Below, one piece after another: positions 22,635-36,272 of a stretch of DNA of 64,000 nucleotides (position 1 is its first letter; each line of letters begins with the position of its first letter). The stretch is from an uncultured Fibrobacter sp. (GTDB lineage Bacteria > Fibrobacterota > Fibrobacteria > Fibrobacterales > Fibrobacteraceae). The stretch covers positions 1 through 64,000 of the forward strand of contig NZ_CAMVDO010000013.1 of NCBI RefSeq assembly GCF_947166265.1, given 5' to 3'. Position numbers and translations under genes: made by a program. The notes beneath the pieces were generated by a model that searched no databases, was not told the origin of the DNA, and saw only the letters and a list, made by a program, of their open reading frames with translations.

Positions 22635-23267
22635 TTATTCCGCATCCTTGATCAGACGGACAGAAGCGTAAGCCGGATAATCCTCGTCATCGATTTCATC
22701 ACAGCCGTCTTCGAAACGCACACACGTATAGAATTTTTCGCGACCAATCGCGTGACTTATTGGATCAACCGTTTTTTCGACGCACCAAAAATGAGCCGAA
22801 AAATCAATCAGTTCAAAATCATCGTTGTCATCACGCCTTCCACCAGGTACCATCGAAAAGCCGTACTTGTCAGAGCTTGACTCGATCCATTCCTCCGAGG
22901 CTATGACGCTCAAAACGTCCCTGCAACGGGAATCCTTCTTTGCAAAGCGGACCATCGTTTCCCATTCCTTTTTGCTCGGCAAGTGCCAACCCTCGGGAAT
23001 CGCTTCTTTCAACCCTTTTTCGCTATACAGATAACCGTACTTATCGAAGTACTGGTAATCTTCGTCGTAGGCGACGCAGTCGTCTGAATCCAGCTCGAAT
23101 TTCAGGTTCTCGGCCAGCCAGACCTGATTACCGATTTTGCAGGTCTTGTATTCAGTACCGTCGCGCGGATCCACGAAAGTCCCCATCTCGGCAGCGGTTC
23201 TCTTTGCAGTCTTTTCGCCCTCGGCCTGGGGCTGGGTGGTTTTCTTGGCCATAACCATAATGGACAT
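22635..23267 (-). CDS. Cytoplasmic FISUMP-domain protein 1
   Basis: A 210-residue protein with the Fibrobacter paralogous (FISUMP) domain: FVDPRDGTEYKTCKIGNQVWLAENL (31-55), a GYLYSEKGLKEAIPEGWHLPS block, and a C-terminal SVRLIKDAE. Most such proteins carry lipoprotein signals; this one has a Lys-rich cytoplasmic N-terminus (MAKKTTQPQAEGEKTAKR). The fold belongs to the C-type-lectin/formylglycine-enzyme type, so ligand recognition is plausible. Start at 23267 follows AAGGA at good spacing. It lies directly downstream of the Hsp70/HerA operon on the same strand, with a terminator between. A second FISUMP protein sits on the other flank. Confidence 0.75.
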   Translation of the reverse strand: MSIMVMAKKTTQPQAEGEKTAKRTAAEMGTFVDPRDGTEYKTCKIGNQVWLAENLKFELDSDDCVAYDEDYQYFDKYGYLYSEKGLKEAIPEGWHLPSKKEWETMVRFAKKDSRCRDVLSVIASEEWIESSSDKYGFSMVPGGRRDDNDDFELIDFSAHFWCVEKTVDPISHAIGREKFYTCVRFEDGCDEIDDEDYPAYASVRLIKDAE

Positions 23268-23387
23268 AAGCTTTCCTTTTTTAAGTGATTTACCTTTTGC
23301 TATAAGGCAAATCTAGGTAAAAAGGGATGCTCCAGGAACGATTTTTTATTTGCCCAAATTTTTCGGAACTTTGGGAGCAAGAAAAAA

Positions 23388-23404
23388 GTTCCAGTTTCTG
23401 GAAC
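23388..23404 (-). terminator. Terminator of the Hsp70/HerA operon
   Basis: Minus strand GTTCCAG, loop AAA, CTGGAAC, then TTTTTTC. It is near-identical to the palindrome at 32343-32359 on the other side of the island. Confidence 0.75.
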
Positions 23405-23419
23405 CTGAAAAAAAAACAT

Positions 23420-24061
23420 TCAATTATAATTTTCATCAATGAATGTTTTAATAGCCACATTACCAATAGCATTCGTGGCGGCAGCATCCATTGCAGCCCC
23501 TAAAACGCCGCCAATAAACGGAACCGCTTTTCCCAAATTTACAGCGCCTTTAGTCCCGAATTTTGTTATTAGACGAAAGCCCACAGCTTTGTTTATCTGA
23601 CCAATTACCGTTTTGGGAATCTGCTTGATGAGCCCCTTCGCAGCCGCAGTTGCAACCGAAATTCCGGCAGTTTTCAAAACATCTTTTGCAGAATTCCCTG
23701 CTAGACAAACAAACACCAAGGTTTTCACTCTGTCATCATGCAGGTCATAGCCACCAATTTTCGCAATAGCAGCAATCATACGAATCTGCACATAGATGAC
23801 AGACGTAATATTAGCAGGCAAAGCAACAGGTATTGTTATTAAGCCGCCCAATCCAGTAACAAAACCAGACGTTCCGGCCTTCACATTTTGCCACCTTACT
23901 AAGGCCTCAGCCGCCTTCAACGGCTCATCATAATCATTTTGATAATCTCGCGCCAAGTCTTCGGCAGAATCAGTACCCGGAACACTTCCTGAAACAGCCG
24001 CATCATAGGCCTTGTCAAGAAGTTGCATCATAAAAGAATGATTATCAGAGTCGGAAGACAT
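23420..24061 (-). CDS. EcsC-family protein
   Basis: A 213-residue protein matching the EcsC pattern: a helical N-terminus (LARDYQNDYDEPLKAAEALVRWQNVKAGTSGFVTGLGGLITIPVALPANITSVIYVQIRMIAAIAKIGGYD), then hydrophobic Ala/Gly-rich segments (about 125-200) such as PFIGGVLGAAMDAAATNAIG. EcsC proteins associate with membranes; their biochemical function is not known. Last gene of the six-gene operon; it begins 18 nt after the preceding gene's stop and is followed by an intrinsic terminator. Within the operon it may dock or neutralise the glycine-rich membrane protein. The ribosome-binding site is weak (AGGTC). Confidence 0.75.
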   Translation of the reverse strand: MSSDSDNHSFMMQLLDKAYDAAVSGSVPGTDSAEDLARDYQNDYDEPLKAAEALVRWQNVKAGTSGFVTGLGGLITIPVALPANITSVIYVQIRMIAAIAKIGGYDLHDDRVKTLVFVCLAGNSAKDVLKTAGISVATAAAKGLIKQIPKTVIGQINKAVGFRLITKFGTKGAVNLGKAVPFIGGVLGAAMDAAATNAIGNVAIKTFIDENYN

Positions 24062-24079
24062 ACAAGAGACCTATGTGAT

Positions 24080-24700
24080 TTACGTTTTCTTTAGTACCAC
24101 AGATGAATTTTTAAAACGAGTACGATTAGAAGCATTAGCCTTCATTTTAGCTTCAAAATATTCAAATCCAATTCCTGTTGAATCATCTGTAGATTCATTA
24201 TTTTCTACAGTCAGGGGAATGTCTTTTTCGCTAATTTCTTTTATCTGTTTTGTTAGAGATCCCTTCAAAAAACCGTCAATGAAGAATTCTTCAACCTTAT
24301 CGCACCCTACTTTTTCTATTGCAAATTTTTGGACTTTCTTTTCTATTAAAAATTTTAAAATAATACTAGAATCAGTCACAATTTGCAACAGCGATTTTTC
24401 AATATCTTCAGCATCAATATTATAAGTCCAATGACAATCCCTTTCTATTTTGGAAAAAACAGTCTTCGTTTTTGCTAAAAAAGAAATAGACAGGGTATCA
24501 CTTGAAAGAAGCGATTCCCGTTTTCGAAATTTCTTCCAAAATTCCTTTTGGTCAGTCCAAAAAGCATCTTCTTCAACAGAAGACTCCCCATGGAATTTGA
24601 CTAAATCCATACATGAAGAACCTTGGCTTAAATTAACAACAAAAAGTCGCTTCTGCCAAAACACGAAAACATAGGATCTGTCATTGGACGTATCAATCAT
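24080..24700 (-). CDS. Uncharacterised protein of the Hsp70/HerA operon
   Basis: A 206-residue mixed alpha/beta protein without signal peptide or membrane segment. The N-terminal third has strand-like patches (SYVFVFWQKRLFVVNLSQGSS); the rest is charged and helical. No family is recognised. It begins 2 nt after the stop of the glycine-rich protein gene (GAAGG upstream), so the products are expected in comparable amounts; a cognate chaperone or immunity role for the membrane protein is possible. Base composition is AT-rich like the other island genes. Confidence 0.6.
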   Translation of the reverse strand: MIDTSNDRSYVFVFWQKRLFVVNLSQGSSCMDLVKFHGESSVEEDAFWTDQKEFWKKFRKRESLLSSDTLSISFLAKTKTVFSKIERDCHWTYNIDAEDIEKSLLQIVTDSSIILKFLIEKKVQKFAIEKVGCDKVEEFFIDGFLKGSLTKQIKEISEKDIPLTVENNESTDDSTGIGFEYFEAKMKANASNRTRFKNSSVVLKKT

Positions 24701-24702
24701 TT

Positions 24703-25491
24703 TTATTTACCTTCTCTTTTGTCATCTTCCGCTTTACGCTCGACATCGGTCTTTTGGAACTCTGCCTTAATATCATCCATAATATTTGCAGATTTCTGAG
24801 GATCCAAATTTAAATCTGAGAAAAATCCCTTGAGTTCCTTTCCAGTCTTTACAAAGTCAATATTACCTTTCCCCGCAAAATATTCATAAACTGCAGTTAA
24901 ATCAGACCATCCATTAGCCTTCAAGTTTTTCAAGAAATCAGCAAAATTAGGCGCCGTCATATAAGGAGCCGCACGTTTAATTAAACCTAAGGCATTAATC
25001 CCTTTTACCCCAAGATCCAATCCAACCTTTTCTGAAATGGCATTTCCTGTAATAGTGGCTCCAACTGCAGCATAGGCATATTGTTTAACAGGATTTTCCT
25101 TCATTTCGGCTTCCGCTTTTTTACGGTCATACTCAATATCATTTTTCAAATGATTGATGTACTCTTCGGTTGATTTGAAATCCTCCGGCTTTTTATCAGA
25201 TTGACAAGCTCTGCATCCCAAGTCATCCATATCTTCATCATCTTCTTTGGTAAAAAGTCCCATCACATTTCCAATGCCGCCTAGAACATCCGATATACTC
25301 AAGCTACCGAGCAATTTACCGCCAATAGAAGCAATGCCCGATGCCAAAGATTTGGCTCCAGCAACAAGGGTTCCGCCAATACTAGAAGCAAAACCTCCAA
25401 TGGCACTTGTTACAGCAGAAATGCCAGAACCAATAAAGCCCGCGACACATGAAAATGCAGCGCCAATACCAGCAAGTATTCCAAACAACAT
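24703..25491 (-). CDS. Glycine-zipper membrane protein, candidate effector
   Basis: A 262-residue protein whose first 80 residues are a long hydrophobic Gly/Ala/Ser stretch with many GxxxG/SxxxG steps (MLFGILAGIGAAFSCVAGF, then IGSGISAVTSAIGGFASSIG and further copies). This is the kind of sequence found in pore-forming or membrane-inserting domains. An acidic linker with CRACQSDKK (about 93-101) follows, then a helical soluble domain with a second Ala/Gly-rich patch (AYAAVGATITGNAISEKVG). There is no cleavable signal. AAGGAG precedes the ATG at 25491. Its place beside Hsp70-, GrpE- and HerA-like proteins suggests an aggregation-prone effector that needs chaperoning. Function is inferred from composition only. 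Confidence 0.6.
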   Translation of the reverse strand: MLFGILAGIGAAFSCVAGFIGSGISAVTSAIGGFASSIGGTLVAGAKSLASGIASIGGKLLGSLSISDVLGGIGNVMGLFTKEDDEDMDDLGCRACQSDKKPEDFKSTEEYINHLKNDIEYDRKKAEAEMKENPVKQYAYAAVGATITGNAISEKVGLDLGVKGINALGLIKRAAPYMTAPNFADFLKNLKANGWSDLTAVYEYFAGKGNIDFVKTGKELKGFFSDLNLDPQKSANIMDDIKAEFQKTDVERKAEDDKREGK

Positions 25492-25511
25492 AATGATTCT
25501 CCTTTTTTTTG

Positions 25512-28500
25512 TTAGTTGTTAAAGCCCATAAAAAGATCACTTCTTAAATCTTTTAGCAGGCCGTTGTTGAAAATTTCAATGAAAGACTGTTTTCGTTCCT
25601 CCGAATACTTCGAATTCTCTTTACTAGAGTACAATAAGCGGTCCAAATATGAACTCAAGTATTCCAATGCTAAACCATTATTCACCAACAATTCAATTGT
25701 GATCAATAATTCTTTTTCTTCATCGCGTCCCTCTTTATGATATCTAGAGCCTCCAACATAATTTACAAATTTTCTAGCAAAGTCAAGGCTTAAAATTTCT
25801 TTGGCAAAAAAATCCAAGGTGTTTGTCGAAACTTTTTTCCCTATTGAGGATTCTGCATAAAATTCAAGGCATGTTTTACGCAAAATCTCATCTGAATAGG
25901 GTTTGCGTCCAGTGTCATTATCTTCTTGGCGTTCAACCTTAATTTGCACAGGCTTATTCCAAGATCCAGATTTCCCTGTAGAGGTTGCATTTCCTGCATT
26001 TTGAGAAAACATAATGGCACGTCCTGTTTCAAGAGATGACAGGAAATTTTTCTGTTCGTCTTCCAAGGCCATCGTATTTCCAATAGCCTCCTTGTCATCT
26101 TGAGCAAAAAGACGGTGCACTATTTTAGTATTCGTATTCTTCAACACATCTGGTGTCAGTTTATTCGGAATCTGATCCGCAATAATGAAACACTCACCAT
26201 ATTTTCGAACCTCTGCAAGCATATCGGCAAAGATTTCTACGCTTTGCTTTCGATTCATACCATCACCAGGAGCCCACTTTGCAAGCAATCGGTGAGCTTC
26301 TTCAACAAGCGTAATATGCTTAAATCCACTAGAATCGCGATACTTTTGTTTAATAATCTCTCCTAATACAGAAAGAATCAACCCCATAATAAGAGCTTTT
26401 TCGCCTGGATTCCTGATGGGTTCAAGTTCCAAGACAACCTTTCTGTCAAGAAGTTTGTTAAAATCTATGGAACGTGGTGTATTAAGCATTTTTCCTTTAG
26501 CACCATGAGTGAGCGCCTGGAATCGTGCAACGATGGAGCCAATATATTCGTCTTTGAGGCGTTCATCAAATCCCTGCTCCCTTACAACTTCAGGGACCGC
26601 CGCAATGAAGTCATCAATCATCGGGAAGGAGCAAACTCCTTCTGCATAGGGATCGTCGTAATGGCTATTCGTGTCATCCTCTTCATTCCATCCCTTGGCC
26701 TTGTAAATTTTATAGATCGTAGCCTCTACAATTTGCGGAATCGCAGCTTCCATATCAAAAGATGCTTCAAAGCAGGCCTTAAGCATATCCACATGCGACG
26801 ACAGACTTTCGCCAGGCAGTAGCTCAAAAGGATTCAGTCTGAATGGAGCAACCCTATCATCGCCTAAAGTAAACACAAGTAAATCTTCATATTTTTGCTT
26901 TAGAATTCGATATTCCGTTTTGGCCGGTTCAATAACACAGAACGGCAATTTGCTTTCTATAAGCAGACGCTGACACGTTGTAGTTTTTCCGCTACCAGTT
27001 ACGCCCGTAACAAATACATGCTTGTCAAGGATATCTTTATCAAGATACACTTCCGTATCCAGGACATTGCCGCTTTGAACAAGCTTACCCATCAAAATAG
27101 ACGATTCACTTTTTAAAGGCGTGTTCAAACCAAATTCAACTTCAGCCCTAAGCGGAAGTCCCCGAACTTCTTTTTGCGGTAAACCAGCAATTAAGCTAAG
27201 TTCCCTAGCCGAATAACAATTGCCAATGCTATAGAATGGAGAACGAGAATACACCGCATATACAGACTGTTTATCTTTGCCTATCAAGGGTCTATTGGCA
27301 TGAGGTAATTGAAAATGCCTCATAGCATCAATGAGAGATTTATCATTAAGTTCCTTTACATTCTGTATTCGCAAAGGATTTTTGTTACCGCTTTCACCGG
27401 AATATAAAGCACAAATAGTGGATTTAAGTTCCTGCATCTGATCCGGTGTTTCCGTAAACAACAAAGCCGATGTCAAGAACAAGCCCTTACCTTTACTATA
27501 GTCAAGACGTGGCAAAAGAACTTCATCTAGATATTTTTGCAAATCAACCAAACGTTTATCCAGCCTTTCTATAGTGAAAGACGTAGATGTATTTGTAGAT
27601 GAACCTACATTCTCTGAAACTGATTCTGTCTTCCCAGAAGTTTTGTTAACTGTTTTACTTTCAGAAACGGTTGTTGATGTAGAAGATCCTCTTTGATCCG
27701 TATGGCTTGTTCCGCCGGACTCATTTGTGCTGTGTTTTCCCTGATTTGAAGACGTCCCTTTCCCTTCAGAGTGCGATTTTGTATCAGAATATCCTGTGTT
27801 AGAGCCATCTGTTTTAGATTTTGCGGAACTCGCACCTTCCGACGATGAGGAACTCGATCCATTTGTGGTCGTAACCCCCATAGTTTTACCATCAGAAAAA
27901 CTTCCCTGCTGAGACATTTTTGAAAATGTTGCCATTTCACTGTAAAGATCATAGACATCATTTTCAATATCTAATATTTCTGCATCCTTCAAAGGACGAG
28001 CAATCAGCATAAATGCAAAATTTTCATTCTGCATTACGTCAACAAGCCTGTTCACCGCTTGAAATTCTTCATCATCCTTATTAATTCCCGGAATACCTTG
28101 CATCAAGTGAATATTCTTGTACACCTTATCATTATTGAGCAAACTCAATATCTGTTTTTTTTCTTCAGGTTCAAGACTTTTTACGGAACTGCCTCTAAAA
28201 TTTCCTAAAATACTAGTTTTGAGAATACGGTCCGCGATATCACATAAAGCAACATCCGTTTTTTGGGAGTCATACAAATCAGATGCCACCCCAAAATAGA
28301 AAGACACGCCTTTTTGTCTATCACCTATTAAAAGGTAAATAAAGTTGATTCCTTCCATACGTAATGCGGAAACAACATTCTCAAGAGCTTCCTTACGTGG
28401 CGCAGTCTTTTCGTAGGTAACTTCTTCGATACGGAACAATTCAAAATTGCTCAGCAAATCTAGTTTTTTATCAATCGCCTTTACCGGAAGCGATTCATTG

Positions 28501-28556
28501 GGAACTATTCTTAAACACTTTAGCAAGTTATTGATTTTCGATTGATCTGCTAACAT
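25512..28556 (-). CDS. HerA/FtsK-like hexameric ATPase (DUF87 type) with a Ser/Thr-rich linker
   Basis: A 1014-residue P-loop ATPase. The N-terminal part (1-215) is a mixed alpha/beta domain containing IYLLIGDRQKGVSFYFGVASD, as in HerA-type proteins of secretion and conflict loci. Residues about 220-320 are a low-complexity Ser/Thr/Gly/Asn/Lys linker. The motor follows: Walker A GVTGSGKTTT near 520, Walker B TLVEEAHRLL near 745, and conserved DQIPNKLTPDVLKNTNTKIVHRL sensor/arginine region near 800. C-terminal helices (about 900-1014) may bind partners. HerA relatives pump DNA or protein as hexamers. AGGAG precedes the ATG; it lies 8 nt after the Hsp70-like gene. A DNA-translocating sensor/motor role is inferred. 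Confidence 0.75.
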   Translation of the reverse strand: MLADQSKINNLLKCLRIVPNESLPVKAIDKKLDLLSNFELFRIEEVTYEKTAPRKEALENVVSALRMEGINFIYLLIGDRQKGVSFYFGVASDLYDSQKTDVALCDIADRILKTSILGNFRGSSVKSLEPEEKKQILSLLNNDKVYKNIHLMQGIPGINKDDEEFQAVNRLVDVMQNENFAFMLIARPLKDAEILDIENDVYDLYSEMATFSKMSQQGSFSDGKTMGVTTTNGSSSSSSEGASSAKSKTDGSNTGYSDTKSHSEGKGTSSNQGKHSTNESGGTSHTDQRGSSTSTTVSESKTVNKTSGKTESVSENVGSSTNTSTSFTIERLDKRLVDLQKYLDEVLLPRLDYSKGKGLFLTSALLFTETPDQMQELKSTICALYSGESGNKNPLRIQNVKELNDKSLIDAMRHFQLPHANRPLIGKDKQSVYAVYSRSPFYSIGNCYSARELSLIAGLPQKEVRGLPLRAEVEFGLNTPLKSESSILMGKLVQSGNVLDTEVYLDKDILDKHVFVTGVTGSGKTTTCQRLLIESKLPFCVIEPAKTEYRILKQKYEDLLVFTLGDDRVAPFRLNPFELLPGESLSSHVDMLKACFEASFDMEAAIPQIVEATIYKIYKAKGWNEEDDTNSHYDDPYAEGVCSFPMIDDFIAAVPEVVREQGFDERLKDEYIGSIVARFQALTHGAKGKMLNTPRSIDFNKLLDRKVVLELEPIRNPGEKALIMGLILSVLGEIIKQKYRDSSGFKHITLVEEAHRLLAKWAPGDGMNRKQSVEIFADMLAEVRKYGECFIIADQIPNKLTPDVLKNTNTKIVHRLFAQDDKEAIGNTMALEDEQKNFLSSLETGRAIMFSQNAGNATSTGKSGSWNKPVQIKVERQEDNDTGRKPYSDEILRKTCLEFYAESSIGKKVSTNTLDFFAKEILSLDFARKFVNYVGGSRYHKEGRDEEKELLITIELLVNNGLALEYLSSYLDRLLYSSKENSKYSEERKQSFIEIFNNGLLKDLRSDLFMGFNN

Positions 28557-28564
28557 ATTTGCTC

Positions 28565-31531
28565 CTATCTTGACAAAATAATTTCTTTCCCGTTATTACA
28601 TTCGTTTTCAGACTTAGCAATAGCCCATTCCAATGTATGCGGATCTTTTGCACGGATGAAAAAGCCAGCTTCTTTATCTACGGCATTAAAACTGCATCGG
28701 ATTCTTTTAGTTTTAACAATATTCAATTTGTTAGTTATCGCAGACGGAGTGTCTGTATAATAAATTTCCATCGCATCATCATCCTCTTCAACATCCATAA
28801 ACCTATACCAAACACCTATTTCAAGCCGACCCGCATTCTGGTCAACATTCTTATCGTTGATAATTTGGAATTTATTCCTAGAGTTAAAACCAACATAGAA
28901 GGCAAAGAATTTTTCGCCGTTATCGTTATCAAGATTAAGATTTTCAACTTTAATTCGCCCACCTTTTCTAGACAACAAGAGACCAAAGGCGACACCAGTC
29001 TTTCCTGTGGGTCGTTCCATCTCATCCCTTGAATCCGCATAATCTGGATTCGATTCCTGCAATGTTTTGTAGAAATCTTCCGAGCCAATAGGCGGGAGAA
29101 TTCGGCACTCAATTGGTAAATCTTCTTTATGCTGTTCAAGATATTGATTAAAAAGTTCCTTGACGATTGGAGATTTTGAAGAATTACCAGCCAAAAGAAT
29201 GTTGAACGACTCCATCCTCATTTCTTTATCATTTCTCTTATAGAAGGCAGAATGGAATGCTGCAAAAAATTGTTGGACCCCCATATCAATTCTTGATTTC
29301 AAAATAGCCATGATTTCATTTCGATTGGCGTCCAGCCTAAAACCGGTAATCAATTCGCCTTTAGCATTGAGTAGGTTTACTTCCAACGACTCCTGATTGT
29401 CAAGAGAATTCTTCTCACCTTCAGTTTCAGTGCCTTCCCAAATAGGTCGCAACGCTTTCATTAAGTTCTTGATATTGTAAGCAGCTTCACATGAGTTATT
29501 ATCAATCAGCATTTCAGAACCCTGAAAATCATTGCACTCCGCAGGCTGCATAAAGGTAATTCCTTCTTTGCTAAGGATCTTTGCATTCTTTTTGAATATT
29601 TCAAAAGCCAGTAAGGCAAGCAAATTTTCCCCACCAAGATAGCGATCTCCCTGCGCTCCGTAATGGGTTATGATAAAATCATACCTTGGTTTTGTAGAGG
29701 TCTGCCATTCACCGAAATCAAAATCCGTTGTACCGCCACCGAAATCAAAGACTCCAAAATAAACTTTCTTACCATCTTCGGGAATAAAATTATATTCTCG
29801 CATAGCACATGCAGCATAAGCTGCCGGCTCGTTAATTTGCCCATTGACCCTAAATCGCTCCATCAACTCCTTTTTCTCAACAACCGCTGTAGGAAGTGAT
29901 TTCAGCAAGCCTCTTCTAAAGCTCTCCGTAATATGCTTTTGAACTGCAACTTCATAAGTTACAGGGAACGAAAGATAGTAATCCAAAAAAATTCCATTTC
30001 GCATATTGTTGATGTACAATCCCAAGTAATAAGCATATACTTCTATGGGATCAAAATCATTTTGCGAATCCAACTCTTTAAAAGGAGGCAATTCAATCTT
30101 TGTCTTTGACTTATCTATCAACACATATTTTTTATTGCTGGATGAATTACCGGCCCACTGCTTCAAATCTGAGAAAAAAGCAGTATATTCACCATTTGTT
30201 GTGCTTGCAAAAAAATCCTCATAAGCCTGATGTGAAATTTTCAAATCATTCCATTCCGTTTGAGGACGATTTCCAATGGCATAAGCATTCATAAACTGAT
30301 TGATTGAAATCAGTTCCATTGTAGTGGGATTTTCATAATGTTGCTTAGAAACCTCTTTTCTCAGTTCTCCCGTTCCAATTCGCATCGGAACAATGCGTTC
30401 GCTGTCAGATTGGAAAACAACAACCGTGCTTTTTGTGCCAAAATCAATCCCAACAACACCACTTTCATGAACATCTTGACACGGATTTCGAGCATACAAG
30501 CCGTCATATTGATCTTCCGCACCCCAAAGTTCCCAATGACCTCGGTTCGGATCCTTTACTAGCTTCTCGTCATAAGGTTCCAAGTCTGCACGATTTTTAT
30601 CGCAATTAAGAAGATCATCGAGAATATTTTCCGAATGTAGCTTCGATATAATTGTTTGTGAAGAAAAATCGGATATGTTATCTTTTATGGATTTGATTCG
30701 TTGTAATTGTTCATTTACGATTTTAAGAAGTTCTAACAGATCTTTTCTTGAGATTTTTTCTTCTTTATGATTTACTGAAATAAAGCAATCTAAAACATTT
30801 ACAAATAACTTCTGAATACCTTTGTCATAAAGGTATGAAATTTGAAGATTATGAGAACATATTGTATGCAATAAGCTCTGTACCGAATAAATTCTTTCTT
30901 TTAATTCGAAAGTCGGCCATTTGTATGATTCACTTGTATAGCTACTTCTATTTCTATTAATGCTATTTACGCCATAAACGTTATAGCAATCGTTGCTTCT
31001 TGTTGCAAAATATCGATCACCTTCTAAAACAGAATTATTACCCAAATTTAAGTTCTTTAAAAAGGAGGATAATGAGGAAAAATCTAATTTTTCAATATGA
31101 CTGTTTCTAGGTAGAGTCCATGAAAAGTCGGGGTCATTATATGGCGTAATAAGTTCTTGCTTGCTGATTCTGCCTGTGGGATCAAGAACGAATACATCTA
31201 AATCTTTACAGTAGACAACTCGGACATTTTCACTTATATTAAAAAGAATAAACGGTTTGTATTGTACTAAAAATTCAAGAACCTTTACCAATATTGAATG
31301 CCGTTGTTCATAGAATTCTTTTGTATCGGGCGCAGTTTGTTCATTCTCTTTGAGCGTTTGCAATGCACTTAGCAATATGGTTTCCGCATCCATAGTTTTC
31401 AATTCTTCTTCGTCCATCATTTGACTATCCTTTTTTTGATTTTGTTTATAATTCTGATTAATTTGATTAACAGTCTCTCTTACAATTGAGCCTACTATTC
31501 CACCAATTAGACCACTAGTGCTTTCAGACAT
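28565..31531 (-). CDS. Giant Hsp70/DnaK-like ATPase with a large N-terminal extension
   Basis: A 988-residue protein. Residues 1-30 include a glycine-rich hydrophobic stretch (GLIGGIVGSIV) that might touch a membrane. Residues 40-350 are a unique helical domain. The Hsp70/actin ATPase fold follows: phosphate-1 VGIDFGTKSTVVVF near 360, NEPAAYAA connect-type motif near 565, phosphate-2 FGVFDFGGGTTDFDF near 597, and adenosine motif LLAGNSSKSPIV near 780. A C-terminal beta-rich part (850-988) replaces a canonical DnaK substrate-binding domain. It overlaps the GrpE-like gene by 25 nt; AAGGGTGAAGT precedes the ATG. With a GrpE-like partner it is probably a dedicated chaperone machine of this operon, not housekeeping DnaK. 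Confidence 0.75.
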   Translation of the reverse strand: MSESTSGLIGGIVGSIVRETVNQINQNYKQNQKKDSQMMDEEELKTMDAETILLSALQTLKENEQTAPDTKEFYEQRHSILVKVLEFLVQYKPFILFNISENVRVVYCKDLDVFVLDPTGRISKQELITPYNDPDFSWTLPRNSHIEKLDFSSLSSFLKNLNLGNNSVLEGDRYFATRSNDCYNVYGVNSINRNRSSYTSESYKWPTFELKERIYSVQSLLHTICSHNLQISYLYDKGIQKLFVNVLDCFISVNHKEEKISRKDLLELLKIVNEQLQRIKSIKDNISDFSSQTIISKLHSENILDDLLNCDKNRADLEPYDEKLVKDPNRGHWELWGAEDQYDGLYARNPCQDVHESGVVGIDFGTKSTVVVFQSDSERIVPMRIGTGELRKEVSKQHYENPTTMELISINQFMNAYAIGNRPQTEWNDLKISHQAYEDFFASTTNGEYTAFFSDLKQWAGNSSSNKKYVLIDKSKTKIELPPFKELDSQNDFDPIEVYAYYLGLYINNMRNGIFLDYYLSFPVTYEVAVQKHITESFRRGLLKSLPTAVVEKKELMERFRVNGQINEPAAYAACAMREYNFIPEDGKKVYFGVFDFGGGTTDFDFGEWQTSTKPRYDFIITHYGAQGDRYLGGENLLALLAFEIFKKNAKILSKEGITFMQPAECNDFQGSEMLIDNNSCEAAYNIKNLMKALRPIWEGTETEGEKNSLDNQESLEVNLLNAKGELITGFRLDANRNEIMAILKSRIDMGVQQFFAAFHSAFYKRNDKEMRMESFNILLAGNSSKSPIVKELFNQYLEQHKEDLPIECRILPPIGSEDFYKTLQESNPDYADSRDEMERPTGKTGVAFGLLLSRKGGRIKVENLNLDNDNGEKFFAFYVGFNSRNKFQIINDKNVDQNAGRLEIGVWYRFMDVEEDDDAMEIYYTDTPSAITNKLNIVKTKRIRCSFNAVDKEAGFFIRAKDPHTLEWAIAKSENECNNGKEIILSR

Positions 31532-32205
31532 ACTTCACCCTTAAGCATTAACCCACAAGTCAAAACTCTTGTTACTTTCACACGGTTTTTCCCTTCGCAA
31601 TGAATATGTTTTTCGTCATCAAAAACTTCTCCTGGTTTAACTTTTAATTCCTTGGCTTTATCATTCATTCTCTCATAAATAGAGATAAAGTATTTTAAAA
31701 TTTTTCCCATTTTTTCCGCCAAATCAAATTCTTTTTTCGTTGTGTAGACACGAATCGTTTCAGCAAAATTCCTAATGCGGCTAAGATCTGTTCCACAAAC
31801 AATGAAATCTTCAAAATTATCACTTAATATGTTTCGCAAAGTCTTTTTGACCGTATCAGGCAAAGCCTGATAAGTTTGCTTTATTTCGATCAACCGTTCA
31901 AAAGGTTTTAAGGCATCTTCGGTTTCTTTAAGCTTCGCTTTCAAATCACGAACAGAATCGCTTACTTCTTTTTGCTGATTCTTACTTTCAGCAAGATCCT
32001 TTTGTAGAATTTCATTCTGCTTCTTGAGTTTCGAGCACTCCTCCTGAGCATTTTTCAATTTTTCATTACATTCCTTGATCTTTTTCGCATCATCCAAACA
32101 CTCTTCTTCATCGGAAGATTGTTCCAAAAGGCGTTGTACCTTTTTGCAGATTTTTGAATCTTTCAAAGTTTCTAAAAGCATATTCTCAAACTCTTCTTGT
32201 TCCAT
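31507..32205 (-). CDS. GrpE-like coiled-coil protein, putative exchange factor
   Basis: A 232-residue protein starting with ATG at 32205 after AAGGATC; an upstream in-frame ATG at 32241 lacks a ribosome-binding site. Residues 40-105 form a long charged coiled coil. A helical segment follows, and the last 40 residues (PGEVFDDEKHIHCEG, then VKVTRVLTCGLMLKGEVCLKALVV) follow the GrpE beta-domain pattern (FD..H, V..VL..GY....VLRPA.V). GrpE releases ADP from DnaK; adjacency to a divergent Hsp70-like ATPase strongly supports that role here. First gene of the six-gene operon. Confidence 0.65.
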   Translation of the reverse strand: MEQEEFENMLLETLKDSKICKKVQRLLEQSSDEEECLDDAKKIKECNEKLKNAQEECSKLKKQNEILQKDLAESKNQQKEVSDSVRDLKAKLKETEDALKPFERLIEIKQTYQALPDTVKKTLRNILSDNFEDFIVCGTDLSRIRNFAETIRVYTTKKEFDLAEKMGKILKYFISIYERMNDKAKELKVKPGEVFDDEKHIHCEGKNRVKVTRVLTCGLMLKGEVCLKALVV

Positions 32206-32231
32206 TTTTGATCCTTTTTTACTTATCAAAC

Positions 32232-32237
32232 AATATA
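32232..32237 (-). promoter_or_regulatory. -10-like element of the Hsp70/HerA operon
   Basis: Minus strand TATATT (32237-32232), about 27 nt before the ATG at 32205, in very AT-rich DNA; no convincing -35. The palindrome 32291-32305 lies about 55 nt upstream. Confidence 0.4.
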
Positions 32238-32290
32238 ACATATTTTTTCGTTACATTCTAAAAAAAATTCATTTTTTTTCGATCCTCGTT

Positions 32291-32305
32291 ATTCCAACTT
32301 GGAAT
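32291..32305. promoter_or_regulatory. Palindrome ATTCCAA-C-TTGGAAT in the divergent control region
   Basis: A perfect 7-bp dyad around a single C, between the divergent starts of the GrpE-like gene and FISUMP gene 2. It shares TTCCA/TGGAA half-sites with 32343-32359, so it may be an operator. Confidence 0.45.
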
Positions 32306-32342
32306 ACATCTTTTTAAGGCAAAGAGCCATTTTTCTATAAAA

Positions 32343-32359
32343 GTTCCACTTTCTGGAAC
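32343..32359. promoter_or_regulatory. Palindrome GTTCCA-N5-TGGAAC upstream of FISUMP gene 2
   Basis: Differs by one base from 23388-23404. It lies 18 nt before the -35 box of the FISUMP 2 promoter; no clean T-tract follows (TTGGATTTTTTG). Operator or terminator remnant. Confidence 0.5.
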
Positions 32360-32376
32360 TTGGATTTTTTGTGTAT

Positions 32377-32428: not shown

Positions 32429-33178
32429 ATGAACAGCGAAAATGAAGCGATAAAGTATTGTCCATTTTGCAAGAACCAAGTAAAGAAATCTCTTGACGAC
32501 ATCCGTAGCGACATCAACAAGTTCCTGTCGCCTTATTTTGACATGTACGGAGACGACATTATTACCGATATTCTTGACGACGAGATTATTCAGAGAAAGC
32601 CCGCAATGTCTGCGCTGCACATTGAACAAGGCTTATTCGAGGACCCGCGCGATGGCGAGCTCTACGAGACGGTCACTATCGATGGCAGGGAATGGTTTGC
32701 CGAGAACTTGCGATTCCATTGCAGAAATAGCGTCGTTCTCGACGACAACAACATTTATCAAGACACTTTCGGTCTACTGTACACTTACCATGACGCCAAG
32801 AAATACATCCCCGAGGGGTGGCGGCTCCCCACGATCGAAGATTGGGATTCCCTGATTAATTTTGCCGATGAAATCACGTGCAATTCCACCAGGTCGCTTA
32901 TGCATAAAGACGGCTGGAAAGGCACCGACGGAGTGTACCCCATTGACAATTTCGGTTTCGGAATTTACGCCGCGGGCTACATCGATATCTTAGGAGAATC
33001 CGCCTACGTTGCAGAATCGGGAGATTCCGAGGTGACGTGTTTCTGGGCCGACAGTTCAACGGATTGCGATAGCGAAGGCCACCACGCCGTCAACAGTTTG
33101 TCTTTGAGCAAGCACGGATGGGAAAAGAACTACCGCGCCCCGGATTACAAGTTCTCTGTCCGGTTGGTGCGGGAATAG
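32429..33178 (+). CDS. Cytoplasmic FISUMP-domain protein 2 with an N-terminal Cys motif
   Basis: A 249-residue protein. Residues 8-14 read KYCPFCK, a single CxxC knuckle with no second pair visible. A helical stretch (16-60) follows, then the FISUMP domain: FEDPRDGELYETVTIDGREWFAENLRF (69-95), a YIPEGWRLPTIEDWDSL block and terminal FSVRLVRE. It lacks a signal peptide, like FISUMP protein 1 on the other side of the Hsp70/HerA operon, and both share an approximately 25-residue opening pattern. It is divergently transcribed from that operon. AAAGGA precedes the ATG. The last five codons are included in a 393-bp repeat that recurs at 34613. Confidence 0.75.
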   Translation: MNSENEAIKYCPFCKNQVKKSLDDIRSDINKFLSPYFDMYGDDIITDILDDEIIQRKPAMSALHIEQGLFEDPRDGELYETVTIDGREWFAENLRFHCRNSVVLDDNNIYQDTFGLLYTYHDAKKYIPEGWRLPTIEDWDSLINFADEITCNSTRSLMHKDGWKGTDGVYPIDNFGFGIYAAGYIDILGESAYVAESGDSEVTCFWADSSTDCDSEGHHAVNSLSLSKHGWEKNYRAPDYKFSVRLVRE

Positions 33179-33556
33179 CAAAAATCATCCCCCACCTCCC
33201 CCTATTGCCATCATCCGCAAAAGTTTGTATATTCATTTCAGTAGATTCCGCTAATCCTGCTATCACCGAGAAAATGACGCCGTTGGCGTCCGTATCATAG
33301 TCTCGGTCATAGTTTCAAGCAAGCTTGAAACTGCGACTCTCGACTCAGTACTATTCAGGGCAGGAAGTTCCACTATCTGCTTGAGGTCGTTTCCCTTCGC
33401 GAGGCCGACTACTTCGCGAATCGATACAGTCGCCCTGCGGAGAAAAACGGCTCCGTGGCTATCAACGTAGAGCACCGTCTGTCATCTGATGGACGTTAAA
33501 ACCTTGTCATTCAACAGGTTTGCAAGCGGTTGCCTTGACGACCGCAGGTGTTCTAC
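33164..33556. repeat. 393-bp direct repeat, copy 1
   Basis: Starts in the last codons of FISUMP gene 2 (TTGGTGCGGGAATAG) and ends at AGGTGTTCTAC. It matches 34613-35005 over its entire length with about a dozen substitutions and no indels seen. It contains perfect hairpins GTTTCAAGC-AA-GCTTGAAAC (33312-33331) and GACGCC-GTT-GGCGTC. A 70-codon minus-strand frame is open in both copies but has no ribosome-binding site. Each copy precedes an Rpn/PD-(D/E)XK nuclease gene. Confidence 0.9.
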
Positions 33557-33608: not shown

Positions 33609-33645
33609 TCCGTTTGCAAGCCATAGCCAAAAACTTTCAAACGGA
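33609..33645 (+). promoter_or_regulatory. Hairpin overlapping the nuclease gene's ribosome-binding site
   Basis: TCCGTTTG (33609-33616) pairs with CAAACGGA (33638-33645). The right arm contains most of the ACGGAG ribosome-binding site 5 nt before the ATG at 33650. Confidence 0.5.
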
Positions 33646-33649
33646 GATT

Positions 33650-34582
33650 ATGATGATTCATAAGCCCCATGATTCATTCTTTCGTTGGCTGTTTGCTATA
33701 GCAGCCCACCTTCATTCATTGCTCAAGCTTGCAGAAAACGTCAACCATGAAATCGCCGAATTTCTCAAAGCGATAAATCTTGAAACTCTGGTGCGCATTC
33801 CTGACTCGTATTCGGAAGTAGACGATACTGGCGAAGCGGATCTCGCTTTCCGTGTGAACGTTTCCACGGGGGCACCCTTGATTGTTGGAGTTCTGCTAGA
33901 GCACAAGTCCGGGCGCGATTCGAACGTCTTTGAACAGATTGCCGATTACGTACATTCTGTCATGAGGATTTATGACAAAACACGCGCATACAGTGGAATC
34001 CCGACAATGACCATCATCATTTACAACGGTCCTACCAACTGGAATCCACTCGATAAGTTGGAAGATGGATATCCTGAATTTTTCCGCGGCAGGGTTCTGC
34101 CTTTCCGTTGCGCGTTTGTAAATGTGGCTGATATTCCCGATAGAGCTTGCTTTGCGAGTGACGATATCGCGACAGGAATGGGCATCATCGCAATGAAATA
34201 TGCGTATAATGAACAGAAAATCAAGGAAATCCTACCGAAATTCGCGGATTCCTTGCGCAAGATGCCGCACTACGAGGCCTCTTGCCTTCTGCATAAAATT
34301 AGTGTATATTTAGCAGAGTACCTCAGTGAAGAAGTGCAAAAGGAGCTTGATATGGCGTTCGTAAGCGTGGGACAGAAATACGGGTTCGTCAGTGCCGGCG
34401 ATGTTTTCCGTCAGCGGATTGCAGATGCCCGTGCCGAAGAGCGCAAGAAAGCCGAGGACGAACGCGCAAAATCCGAAGCCGAAAAGCTAAGTACAGCTCG
34501 CGGTCTCTATGAAGATGGCGTTGCGATGGACGTACTTGTTCGCAGGTTCAACCTGACAGAAGAACAAATTCGTGGCAAGTAG
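33650..34582 (+). CDS. Rpn-family recombination-promoting nuclease/putative transposase
   Basis: A 310-residue protein of the Transposase_31/Rpn type. HKPHDSFFRWLFA (3-15) is the family signature, followed by PD-(D/E)XK nuclease residues in EADLAFRVN and VGVLLEHKSG (Asp, then E-x-K) near 65-90, then PTMTIIIYNG. The C-terminus is a charged coiled coil (RIADARAEERKKAEDERAKSEAEK). Rpn proteins are DNA endonucleases that stimulate recombination rather than true transposases. ATG at 33650 follows ACGGAG, which lies in the arm of a hairpin. The gene sits between two 393-bp direct repeats. Confidence 0.85.
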   Translation: MMIHKPHDSFFRWLFAIAAHLHSLLKLAENVNHEIAEFLKAINLETLVRIPDSYSEVDDTGEADLAFRVNVSTGAPLIVGVLLEHKSGRDSNVFEQIADYVHSVMRIYDKTRAYSGIPTMTIIIYNGPTNWNPLDKLEDGYPEFFRGRVLPFRCAFVNVADIPDRACFASDDIATGMGIIAMKYAYNEQKIKEILPKFADSLRKMPHYEASCLLHKISVYLAEYLSEEVQKELDMAFVSVGQKYGFVSAGDVFRQRIADARAEERKKAEDERAKSEAEKLSTARGLYEDGVAMDVLVRRFNLTEEQIRGK

Positions 34583-34612: not shown

Positions 34613-35005
34613 TTGGTGCGGGAATAGCAAAAATCATCCCCCACCTCCCCCTATTGCCATCATCTGCAAAAGTTTGTATATTCATTTCAGTAGATTCAGT
34701 TAATCCTGCTATCACCGAGAAAATGACGCCATTGGCGTCCGTATCATGGTCTCAGTCATAGTTTCAAGCAAGCTTGAAACTGCGACTCTCGACTCAGTAC
34801 TATTCAGGGCAGGAAGTTCCACTATCTGCTTGAGGTCGTTTCCCTTCGCGAGGCCGACTACTTCGCGAATCGATACAGTCGCCCTGCGGAGAAAAACGGC
34901 TCCGTGGCTATCAACGTAGAGCACCGTCTGTCATCAGATGGACGTTAAAACCTTGTCATTCAACAGGTTTGCAAGCGGTTGCCCTGGCTGCCGCAGGTGT
35001 TCTAC
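34613..35005. repeat. 393-bp direct repeat, copy 2
   Basis: Second copy of 33164-33556. It begins with the same TTGGTGCGGGAATAG that encodes the last codons of FISUMP gene 2 in copy 1, but here no gene precedes it, so copy 2 carries a remnant of a gene end. It ends 62 nt before the start of the second nuclease gene. Confidence 0.9.
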
Positions 35006-35067: not shown

Positions 35068-36272
35068 ATGAACCGTACACAACATTATTCCTTGCTCAAG
35101 GCGATGGAAATCGACAAGAGCAACCTTCTCAAGTACCAGGAGCTTTACAAGTACGCCTATCTCCTTAGCGACGGCATTTTCAAGATTGTCTTCGCCAAGG
35201 AAAAGGATCACTTGCTCCTGATTTCGCTCGTGAACGCAATGCTCAATTTGCAGGGCGCTGACGCCATCAAGGATATCACCCTCGAAATGCAGGAGTTTCC
35301 GGGCGCCTTCAACAAGAAGGACTGCATTCTGGTCTTCTTTCGTGAAGTTTTAACGCAACTAAAGTTGCGAAACTTCATCGAAAAAGACATCCTTCGACTA
35401 TCAAACGGCAAAGCCGTTCTCCCGTGCTAAAGCACGGAGTCTCAGGAGACATTATCGGCACCACGAACGCAGGCGAAAAGGTGCTGGTCGAAGTACAGCA
35501 GCAGGGGGACGATTTCTTCCGCGACCGCGTGGAATACTACCTCTCGCGCGTCATCGAAAACCAGGTGCACACGAGTGAAAAGTACGAACTGCCGCGCATC
35601 TACTTCTTGGGTCTCCTGGATTTTGAACTTTTCCCCGAAGAACCGCAGAAGTACATCCACCATGTTGACGAAATGTGCAACGGACGGAAGTTCTTCCCCA
35701 AGATCCAGAAGATTTTCGTGGAAATCGACAAGTTCTTCGAGCTTGAAAAGGCGGGCATCACCAAGGACGACAATTCCGAAGCGGCCCAGTGGCTCCGTGC
35801 CATCAAGGTGGCTATCAAGGAAGAGCCCGTCCCTGAAAAGATTATGCAGAACGAAACGTTCCGCCGCTTGCTTGATTCGGTAAAATTGATTAACTTTGTA
35901 GAAGAACTTTTCAATGCCGAGGTAAAGAACATGACGGATCTGAAGGCTGAACATGAAATCGGTTTTTCTGAAGGCAAGGCCGCAGGTTTTGTTCAGGGCA
36001 AGACTGAAGGACACGCCGCAGGTTTTGCCGAAGGTAAGACCGAGGGACACGCCGCAGGTTTTGCCGAAGGTAAGACCGAGGGACACGCCGAGGGTTTTGC
36101 AGAAGGCAAGACCGAAGGACATGCAGAAGGTCTGTCCGAAGGCGAACGCAACAAGGCCTGCGAAATGGCGTTCAAGATGCTTGCGAAGAACAAGCCTCTC
36201 GAAGAGATTATTGAATTTACGGGCCTGACGGAATCCGAAATATATGCTCTCAAGGCAGGCGCTACGACCTAG
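35068..36272 (+). pseudogene. PD-(D/E)XK nuclease family transposase-like gene, disrupted by an insertion
   Basis: The N-terminal part (88 codons from ATG 35068: MNRTQHYS ... LLSDGIFKIVFAKEKDHLLLISLVNAML ... NKKDCIL) and the C-terminal part (from 35448: DIIGTTNAGEKVLVEVQQQGDDFF ...) belong to one PDDEXK_2-type protein. Between them lies a 116-bp hairpin-rich insertion (35332-35447) that shifts the frame. Removing it joins DCIL to DIIGTT and would give a 362-residue protein of normal length, with the catalytic E-V-Q. The C-terminal region has about five copies of an 11-12-residue GKTEGHAAGFAE repeat (about 35995-36140). The fragments could be translated separately (35068-35430 and 35424-36272), but the catalytic site would be split. 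Confidence 0.8.
35332..35447. repeat. 116-bp hairpin-rich insertion (MITE/REP-like)
   Basis: It contains three hairpins in a row: GAAGTTT-TAA-CGCAACT / AGTTGCGAAACTTC (35344-35376), AACGGC-AAA-GCCGTT (35404-35418) and CCGTGCT-AA-AGCACGG (35422-35437). The ends read GTCT and AGAC. Precise removal restores the host gene's frame. Confidence 0.75.

Follow-up and report, generated by a model that had tools for sequence, protein, structure and literature searches.

HerA-superfamily ATPases usually move DNA, and in known defense systems HerA is partnered by nucleases, such as those of the SIR2, DUF4297 or NurA type. In the third 5′ extension of the Type III-A CoCoNuTs, an EccE3-HerA ATPase is encoded together with a small helical gene (PMC11090510), and GAP1-N2 GTPase conflict systems use an Hsp70/GrpE pair, sometimes with a second Hsp70 (PMC7159879). 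Here we analyzed an operon of an uncultured Fibrobacter sp., which encodes a HerA-like ATPase as well as an Hsp70/GrpE-like pair. It resides on a stretch of 64,000 nucleotides (contig NZ_CAMVDO010000013.1, positions 1 to 64,000; hereafter the window), the host genome being 3.77 Mb in size and 97% complete. Of its six genes, five are found side by side in several phyla, and three of these form a constant unit beside changing partners; they encode HerA, GZ (a membrane-seeking protein) and X (a small protein). We give an even chance to the reading that the operon is an anti-phage system of the abortive-infection type consisting of two modules.

As originally predicted, six consecutive open reading frames (ORFs) on the minus strand (23388-32205) make up one operon. 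The genes of the GrpE-like protein and Hsp70 overlap by 25 nt, and the following gaps measure 8, 20, 2 and 18 nt. The island is indeed AT-rich, with a GC content of 37.6% compared to 50.8% in the remaining window. In operon order the genes are:

31507..32205, minus strand: GrpE-like protein, 232 aa (ATG at 32205; an alternative start at 32241 gives 244 aa), with an N-terminal coiled coil and a C-terminal domain of GrpE-like pattern; based on Pfam GrpE and on homologues at 24 Hsp70 loci
28565..31531, minus strand: lid-less DnaK-type Hsp70, 988 aa; based on motifs, an AlphaFold2 model and Foldseek
25512..28556, minus strand: HerA/VirB4-like ATPase, 1014 aa; based on Pfam DUF87, PADLOC HerA and Walker motifs
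24703..25491, minus strand: GZ, membrane-seeking protein and predicted effector, 262 aa; based on homology, hydropathy, composition and the fixed slot after HerA
24080..24700, minus strand: X, predicted partner or keeper of GZ, 206 aa; based on a leave-one-out profile and predicted structure
23420..24061, minus strand: EcsC-family membrane protein (PADLOC phage-defense candidate PDC-S29), accessory, 213 aa; based on Pfam and PADLOC

When 84,980 genomes were searched for relatives of the Hsp70 by an alignment-based scan, 43 strong ones emerged; single-sequence Hsp70 scans of genome and viral contigs found nothing. In the neighborhoods of the relatives, the genes of the GrpE-like protein, HerA and GZ recurred, and the five-gene set GrpE-like/Hsp70/HerA/GZ/X was found in Bacillota, Bacteroidota, Campylobacterota and Pseudomonadota. 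Full or near-full cassettes are present in Heliorestis, Selenomonadaceae, Bacteroidaceae, Ignatzschineria, Chromatium, Azonexus and Pseudomonas saxonica, where the copy adjoins a type I restriction-modification system (locus L051), and on a plasmid of Acinetobacter piscicola. The gene order is GrpE-Hsp70-HerA-GZ-X in the window and in Bacillota, and HerA-GZ-X-GrpE-Hsp70 in Pseudomonadota. Since the set recurs across phyla, it represents more than a chance association. Of the six families expected to occur jointly elsewhere, five did so across phyla, while EcsC did not. Apart from two short fecal "phage" records that lack annotation and contain a distant HerA, the search for phage-borne copies disclosed none.

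HerA loci and their changing partners

To the loci found through Hsp70, a HerA-first sampling in two further orders was added, resulting in a total of 63 HerA loci; significance tests on these counts ignore relatedness. The gene following HerA encoded GZ at 37 loci and an HNH-family nuclease at 12, the remaining 14 being other or unassigned genes. Upstream dynamins were detected at 11 of the 12 HNH loci versus none of the 37 GZ loci, and the HNH gene was often followed by an immunity-type gene (SMI1/SUKH). SUKH is a family of immunity proteins and HNH a family of toxins in polymorphic toxin systems (PMC3482391). As this slot is often occupied by HNH nuclease and SUKH genes in sister branches and by GZ and X here, the gene following HerA probably encodes an effector. 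Among the HNH loci, L093, L094, L096, L098, L007 and L008 start with a WYL regulator or dynamin GTPases, followed by HerA, the HNH-family nuclease and often SMI1/SUKH. This dynamin-HerA toxin-immunity locus recurs on chromosomes and plasmids, including those of E. coli.

In the HerA tree, the GZ-type proteins formed one clade (branch support 100) together with two rows whose next gene lies at a contig end or was not called GZ. The partners on this clade were Hsp70/GrpE (22), dynamin-like proteins (9), McrB/DUF2357 (2), genes of the TerY-P type (2) and ZorAB (1); for one HerA, none was recognized. At least seven partner switches occurred on the clade, compared to 14.2 on average after shuffling. 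Because some of the loci had entered the sample by way of Hsp70, the total overstates how frequent this partner is; within the HerA-first sample, Hsp70 was encoded at 11 of 24 GZ loci and at none of 15 others. At L095 (4314-11044, genome G140) the ZorAB motor genes adjoin HerA-GZ in the order ZorA-ZorB-X-HerA-GZ, and McrB, DUF2357, HerA and GZ are combined at L004 and L168. Pfam confirmed that HerA-GZ is accompanied at L163 by VWA, PP2C and kinase genes, and that PP2C and kinase genes lie downstream of it at L170. At L172, L173, L176-L179, L181, L183 and L184, HerA-GZ-X precedes a dynamin-like GTPase gene; L176 additionally encodes a radical SAM enzyme and two further proteins, one with hexapeptide repeats and one rich in Cys and Gly.

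Because HerA-GZ-X remains constant while its neighbors change, the latter can be regarded as triggers or regulators, and Hsp70/GrpE looks like one of several exchangeable trigger modules. The original prediction had offered as a plausible model that the Hsp70/GrpE pair holds the membrane protein inactive. This is unlikely, since HerA-GZ-X also occurs without Hsp70 next to ZorAB, McrB/DUF2357, TerY-P-type or dynamin genes.

The pairs of polymorphic-type nuclease and SUKH in the sister slots would also suit a contact-dependent or secreted antibacterial system, in which HerA serves as a pump similar to those of type VII or type IV secretion systems (T7SS, T4SS) and exports GZ, or the HNH toxin at sister loci, while X or SMI1 confers self-immunity and Hsp70/GrpE loads the cargo. 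HerA is VirB4/FtsK-like, the N-terminal part of the CoCoNuT HerA has been modelled on EccE3 of the ESX-3 T7SS (PMC11090510), and in Selenomonadaceae GrpE-Hsp70 pairs lie beside PAAR-like and VgrG-like delivery genes. On the other hand, none of the genes recognized in the operon of the window encodes a WXG100 protein or a pilus, outer-membrane or channel component, and the cassette hosts are monoderm and diderm alike. Moreover, the partners of HerA-GZ include intracellular defense modules (McrB/DUF2357, ZorAB, TerY-P type), and the operon occupies a defense hotspot (see below). On balance, we consider such an export system unlikely.

Proteins encoded by the operon

The Hsp70 gave no Pfam match above noise. 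Its AlphaFold2 model, with a mean pLDDT of 75.5 and about 90 across the nucleotide-binding domain, matched DnaK structures (Foldseek E 1.5e-17, prob 1.00); the matches included mortalin with GrpEL1, and the best one was a DnaK from which SBDalpha had been deleted. For two structure predictions, rows from plasmid records were left out of the alignments. The fold is that of DnaK-type proteins, an actin-like nucleotide-binding domain followed by a C-terminal substrate-binding beta domain, at which the predicted structure stops, so that a C-terminal helical lid (SBDalpha) is missing. The phosphate and adenosine motifs (IDFGTKST, FDFGGGTTDFD and LLAGNSSKS) are intact, and the nucleotide-binding motifs are retained in 38 aligned homologues. 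The model and motifs corroborated the predicted Hsp70-like ATPase. Its N-domain (residues ~1-300) is variable and was modelled with low confidence; in an Acinetobacter homologue this domain matches Lcl_C at 1.8e-6, which is under the Pfam cut-off. In Helicobacter (L005, 6215-8739, and L048) the Hsp70 gene is broken into two ORFs, perhaps by a frameshift. Broken CoCoNuT frames have also been described in Helicobacter (PMC11090510). At the Selenomonadaceae loci L014, L025, L034 and L035, the same kind of GrpE-Hsp70 pair occurs without HerA; its neighbors there are a second DnaK-like gene and delivery genes of the DUF4280 PAAR-like and VgrG-like types.

For the neighboring protein, predicted to be a GrpE-like coiled-coil protein, the coiled coil was recovered, while the GrpE identity is only suggestive. 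The Pfam GrpE profile was covered nearly completely, with E 0.0061 and 16.7 bits against a cut-off of 25.8 bits, and 4 of 12 homologues reached values under E 0.01. Homologues are present at 24 of the Hsp70 loci.

Hsp70 and GrpE are a chaperone pair, and the EcsC family, which also occurs beside TerD/TerY, hints at stress. Both would fit a proteostasis or envelope-stress locus, in which Hsp70, GrpE and HerA control the quality of membrane proteins without any link to phages. This reading is weakened because the canonical dnaK (E 2e-266) and grpE (8e-47) genes reside separately, on contig C3 of the same genome. In addition, within the phylum, only 1 of 168 genomes was found to encode the Hsp70 of the operon (a HerA of the same kind in 6 of 168); this Hsp70, is also borne by plasmids and lies in an exchangeable defense slot. 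A housekeeping role of this kind is thus improbable; the expectation that the set is conserved and not part of a housekeeping locus agrees with both the second dnaK/grpE pair and the hotspot position.

The third gene certainly belongs to the HerA/DUF87 (HerA/VirB4-like) family by its sequence. It matched Pfam DUF87 above the cut-off and PADLOC HerA models down to 5e-16. Walker A (GVTGSGKTTT) and Walker B (...LVEEAHRLL) are both intact in the window, and 14 close homologues show no variation in Walker A or in the EE of Walker B, in line with the HerA-like ATPase predicted before. The protein possesses a long N-terminal part, a Ser/Thr/Gly-rich linker at ~220-330 and a single ATPase domain, unlike the three-domain EccC.

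Movement of DNA is typical of the HerA superfamily, and nucleases are its partners in known defense systems. The operon might accordingly target nucleic acids, with HerA moving DNA, Hsp70 recognizing viral or aberrant RNA in the manner proposed for the CoCoNuT protein CnuD, and the membrane protein anchoring the complex. RNA binding by an Hsp70 has been proposed in the CoCoNuT study, where CnuD is described as degenerate (PMC11090510). The ATP motifs of the Hsp70 studied here are, however, intact, and a nuclease domain was found in none of the six operon proteins. We judge this possibility to be quite unlikely.

GZ proteins comprise ~200-320 aa, and in 40 of 40 members hydrophobicity shows an N-terminal peak. 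The window GZ is homologous to 12 other GZ proteins; its N-terminus is hydrophobic and rich in Gly, Ala and Ser, while the C-terminal part is helical and conserved. It had been described as a glycine-zipper membrane protein. The hydrophobic Gly/Ala/Ser-rich N-terminus was confirmed, but GxxxG motifs were not enriched over composition in the window copy (3 compared to 3.7 in shuffles), so that a glycine zipper has no statistical backing. The conserved feature of the family is the N-terminal hydrophobic stretch.

The N-terminal 65 residues of X were predicted to fold as beta-beta-(beta-beta)-alpha, and the model is confident only there; Foldseek found no relative of this model. A direct hhalign comparison of the window X with other small genes was tried before a leave-one-out profile with more members, which supported homology. 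With the window X omitted from the profile, it ranked first among non-X proteins (E 0.0017, 1740 proteins). The only comparable non-training match was L167_02, two genes past GZ, probably an X that lacks its label. The same procedure did not retrieve several of the more distant X groups, indicating that the family is partly held together by position. X is a fast-evolving family. It was found in Hsp70, ZorAB and dynamin settings. X is a better candidate for a keeper of GZ than Hsp70/GrpE.

The identity of the last protein as a member of EcsC/PDC-S29 is certain from the matches obtained, as had been predicted (Pfam 2.3e-12; PADLOC PDC-S29 9e-85; full-length match to the family profile). Its membership in the set did not hold. 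EcsC was encoded at none of the other HerA-GZ loci surveyed and was rejected as a core member, and PDC-S29 genes elsewhere have no neighboring HerA, GZ or Hsp70. EcsC is an accessory that joined the window copy. A second, distant EcsC copy exists in the same genome (G000:C9:84125-84598), and similar distant copies occur across many genomes of the genus.

Island borders and the defense hotspot

In the sister genome G098, both flanks of the island align at 86-87% up to positions 23397 and 32291 of the window. The features of the borders are:

23397..32291, no strand: variable slot; 86-87% identity to G098 outside, unrelated inside
23386..23406, minus strand: intrinsic-terminator-like hairpin closing the operon; contains the 19-bp AAGTTCCASTTTCTGGAAC and, within it, the left island border (~23397)
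32341..32361, plus strand: second copy of the near-palindromic repeat AAGTTCCASTTTCTGGAAC, ~50 bp beyond the right island border

The slot of G098 (contig 12, L081:5643-11165) encodes an IetA-like AAA ATPase, a 411-aa protein, ZorA-like and ZorB-like proteins and a patatin phospholipase. In G103 and G122 the conserved left flank is adjoined by genes of a dynamin-type GTPase, a 211-aa protein, HerA, an HNH protein (250 aa) and SMI1. As their HerA belongs to another branch of the tree, this site has been reached by two different HerA systems. The slot of G061 is interrupted by contig ends, with Cas6 located past the left flank and Cas10/Cas7/Cas5 of type III-D past the right one. The island thus lies in a defense hotspot. 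The 411-aa protein of G098 has an amphipathic-looking N-terminus, and its gene set is an unusual Zorya-like one.

AAGTTCCASTTTCTGGAAC exists only twice in the whole genome, at 23386-23404 and 32341-32359, i.e., at both ends of the slot. Since the left copy doubles as the terminator-like hairpin, a role of the repeats in recombination is only a possibility. Just beyond the right border, a direct repeat of ~390 bp (33164-33556 and ~34613-35005) is 97% identical. The ORFs 33614-34582 and 35424-36272, which lie between and after these copies, resemble Rpn/PD-(D/E)XK-type nuclease genes. Both flanking genes (22635-23267 and 32429-33178) are Fib_succ_major-like, the right one being confirmed by Pfam, which points to a Fibrobacter-like host; a Fib_succ_major domain is also part of a 761-aa protein encoded in the G101 slot.

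Proposed mode of action and comparison with known systems

For the anti-phage system of two modules, we infer the stimulus (phage), the output (membrane damage), the function of X and the sequence of steps as follows. In the trigger module, the lid-less Hsp70 would bind an infection-derived polypeptide (or nucleic acid) via its N-domain or beta domain, the GrpE-like protein would reset it by nucleotide exchange, and its ATP/ADP state would gate HerA. Chaperone-dependent sensing of phages has a precedent in bNACHT25, which requires the host chaperone DnaJ (PMC12169576). In the effector core HerA-GZ-X, X may bind GZ and hold it inactive or insertion-competent, until a HerA hexamer, at the expense of ATP, strips it, threads it or assembles it for insertion. 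The hydrophobic N-terminus of GZ would then enter the inner membrane and depolarize or permeabilize it.

Several points weigh against this mechanism. A HerA pump might equally well export GZ, only composition and slot suggest a toxicity of GZ, and the homology of the window X to other X proteins is based on weak scores. Furthermore, the GrpE assignment lies under the Pfam cut-off and is suggestive only, and a profile of the C-terminal domain of the GrpE-like protein retrieved no GrpE in the PDB.

A more general view, to which we give slightly less than even chances, is that HerA-GZ-X is a plug-in membrane-killing effector powered by a hexameric ATPase, which serves at least five unrelated sensing modules, and that Hsp70/GrpE with its variable N-domain represents chaperone-gated immunity here. 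If true, one modular design (HerA motor, downstream effector slot, swappable trigger) would unite the CoCoNuT HerA extension, the Hsp70/GrpE conflict systems, the dynamin-HerA-nuclease loci and HerA beside ZorAB. It would also be a bacterial case of a dedicated Hsp70 gating an immune effector. X should then neutralize GZ, and a swap of the trigger should alter the phage range, not the output.

With the HerA-nuclease systems covered by the PADLOC HerA models the operon shares a HerA-family ATPase; its HerA, however, contains a long N-terminal part as well as a Ser-rich linker, and the next gene encodes a membrane-seeking protein instead of a nuclease. With PDC-S29 it shares the last gene, a strong member of this family. 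ZorA/ZorB-like genes accompany HerA-GZ at L095 and replace the island in G098, whereas the operon itself lacks ZorA and ZorB. In contrast to type VII secretion (ESX), it contains neither a WXG100 match nor a three-domain EccC ATPase. The GAP1-N2 systems differ in that they are centered on a GTPase and an FNIII protein; HerA, GZ and X are not described in the portion of that paper at hand (PMC7159879).

Within the open-access papers searched for Hsp70 and HerA with EcsC, GrpE, dynamin or Zorya, only the CoCoNuT paper and that on NTP-dependent conflict systems were relevant. Neither X nor a stand-alone Hsp70-HerA set is described in the available sections of the former (PMC11090510), and McrB-type GTPase, DUF2357, TerY-related VWA and HEPN RNase of the Type III-A CoCoNuTs are absent from the six window proteins, whose partner is Hsp70/GrpE. 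The original claim that no named system has this set is therefore mostly right, as far as these sources extend: the stand-alone Hsp70-GrpE-HerA-GZ-X set is undescribed as a system, and the operon lacks the features by which CoCoNuT, Zorya and ESX are defined. For the pair of HerA and a small helical gene the claim did not stand. The CoCoNuT 5′ extension combines an EccE3-like part, a variable insertion, a VirB4-like ATPase and a small helical gene in one operon, an arrangement that would suit the HerA and GZ of the window, and by architecture alone, this EccE3-HerA pair most likely corresponds to HerA-GZ (PMC11090510).

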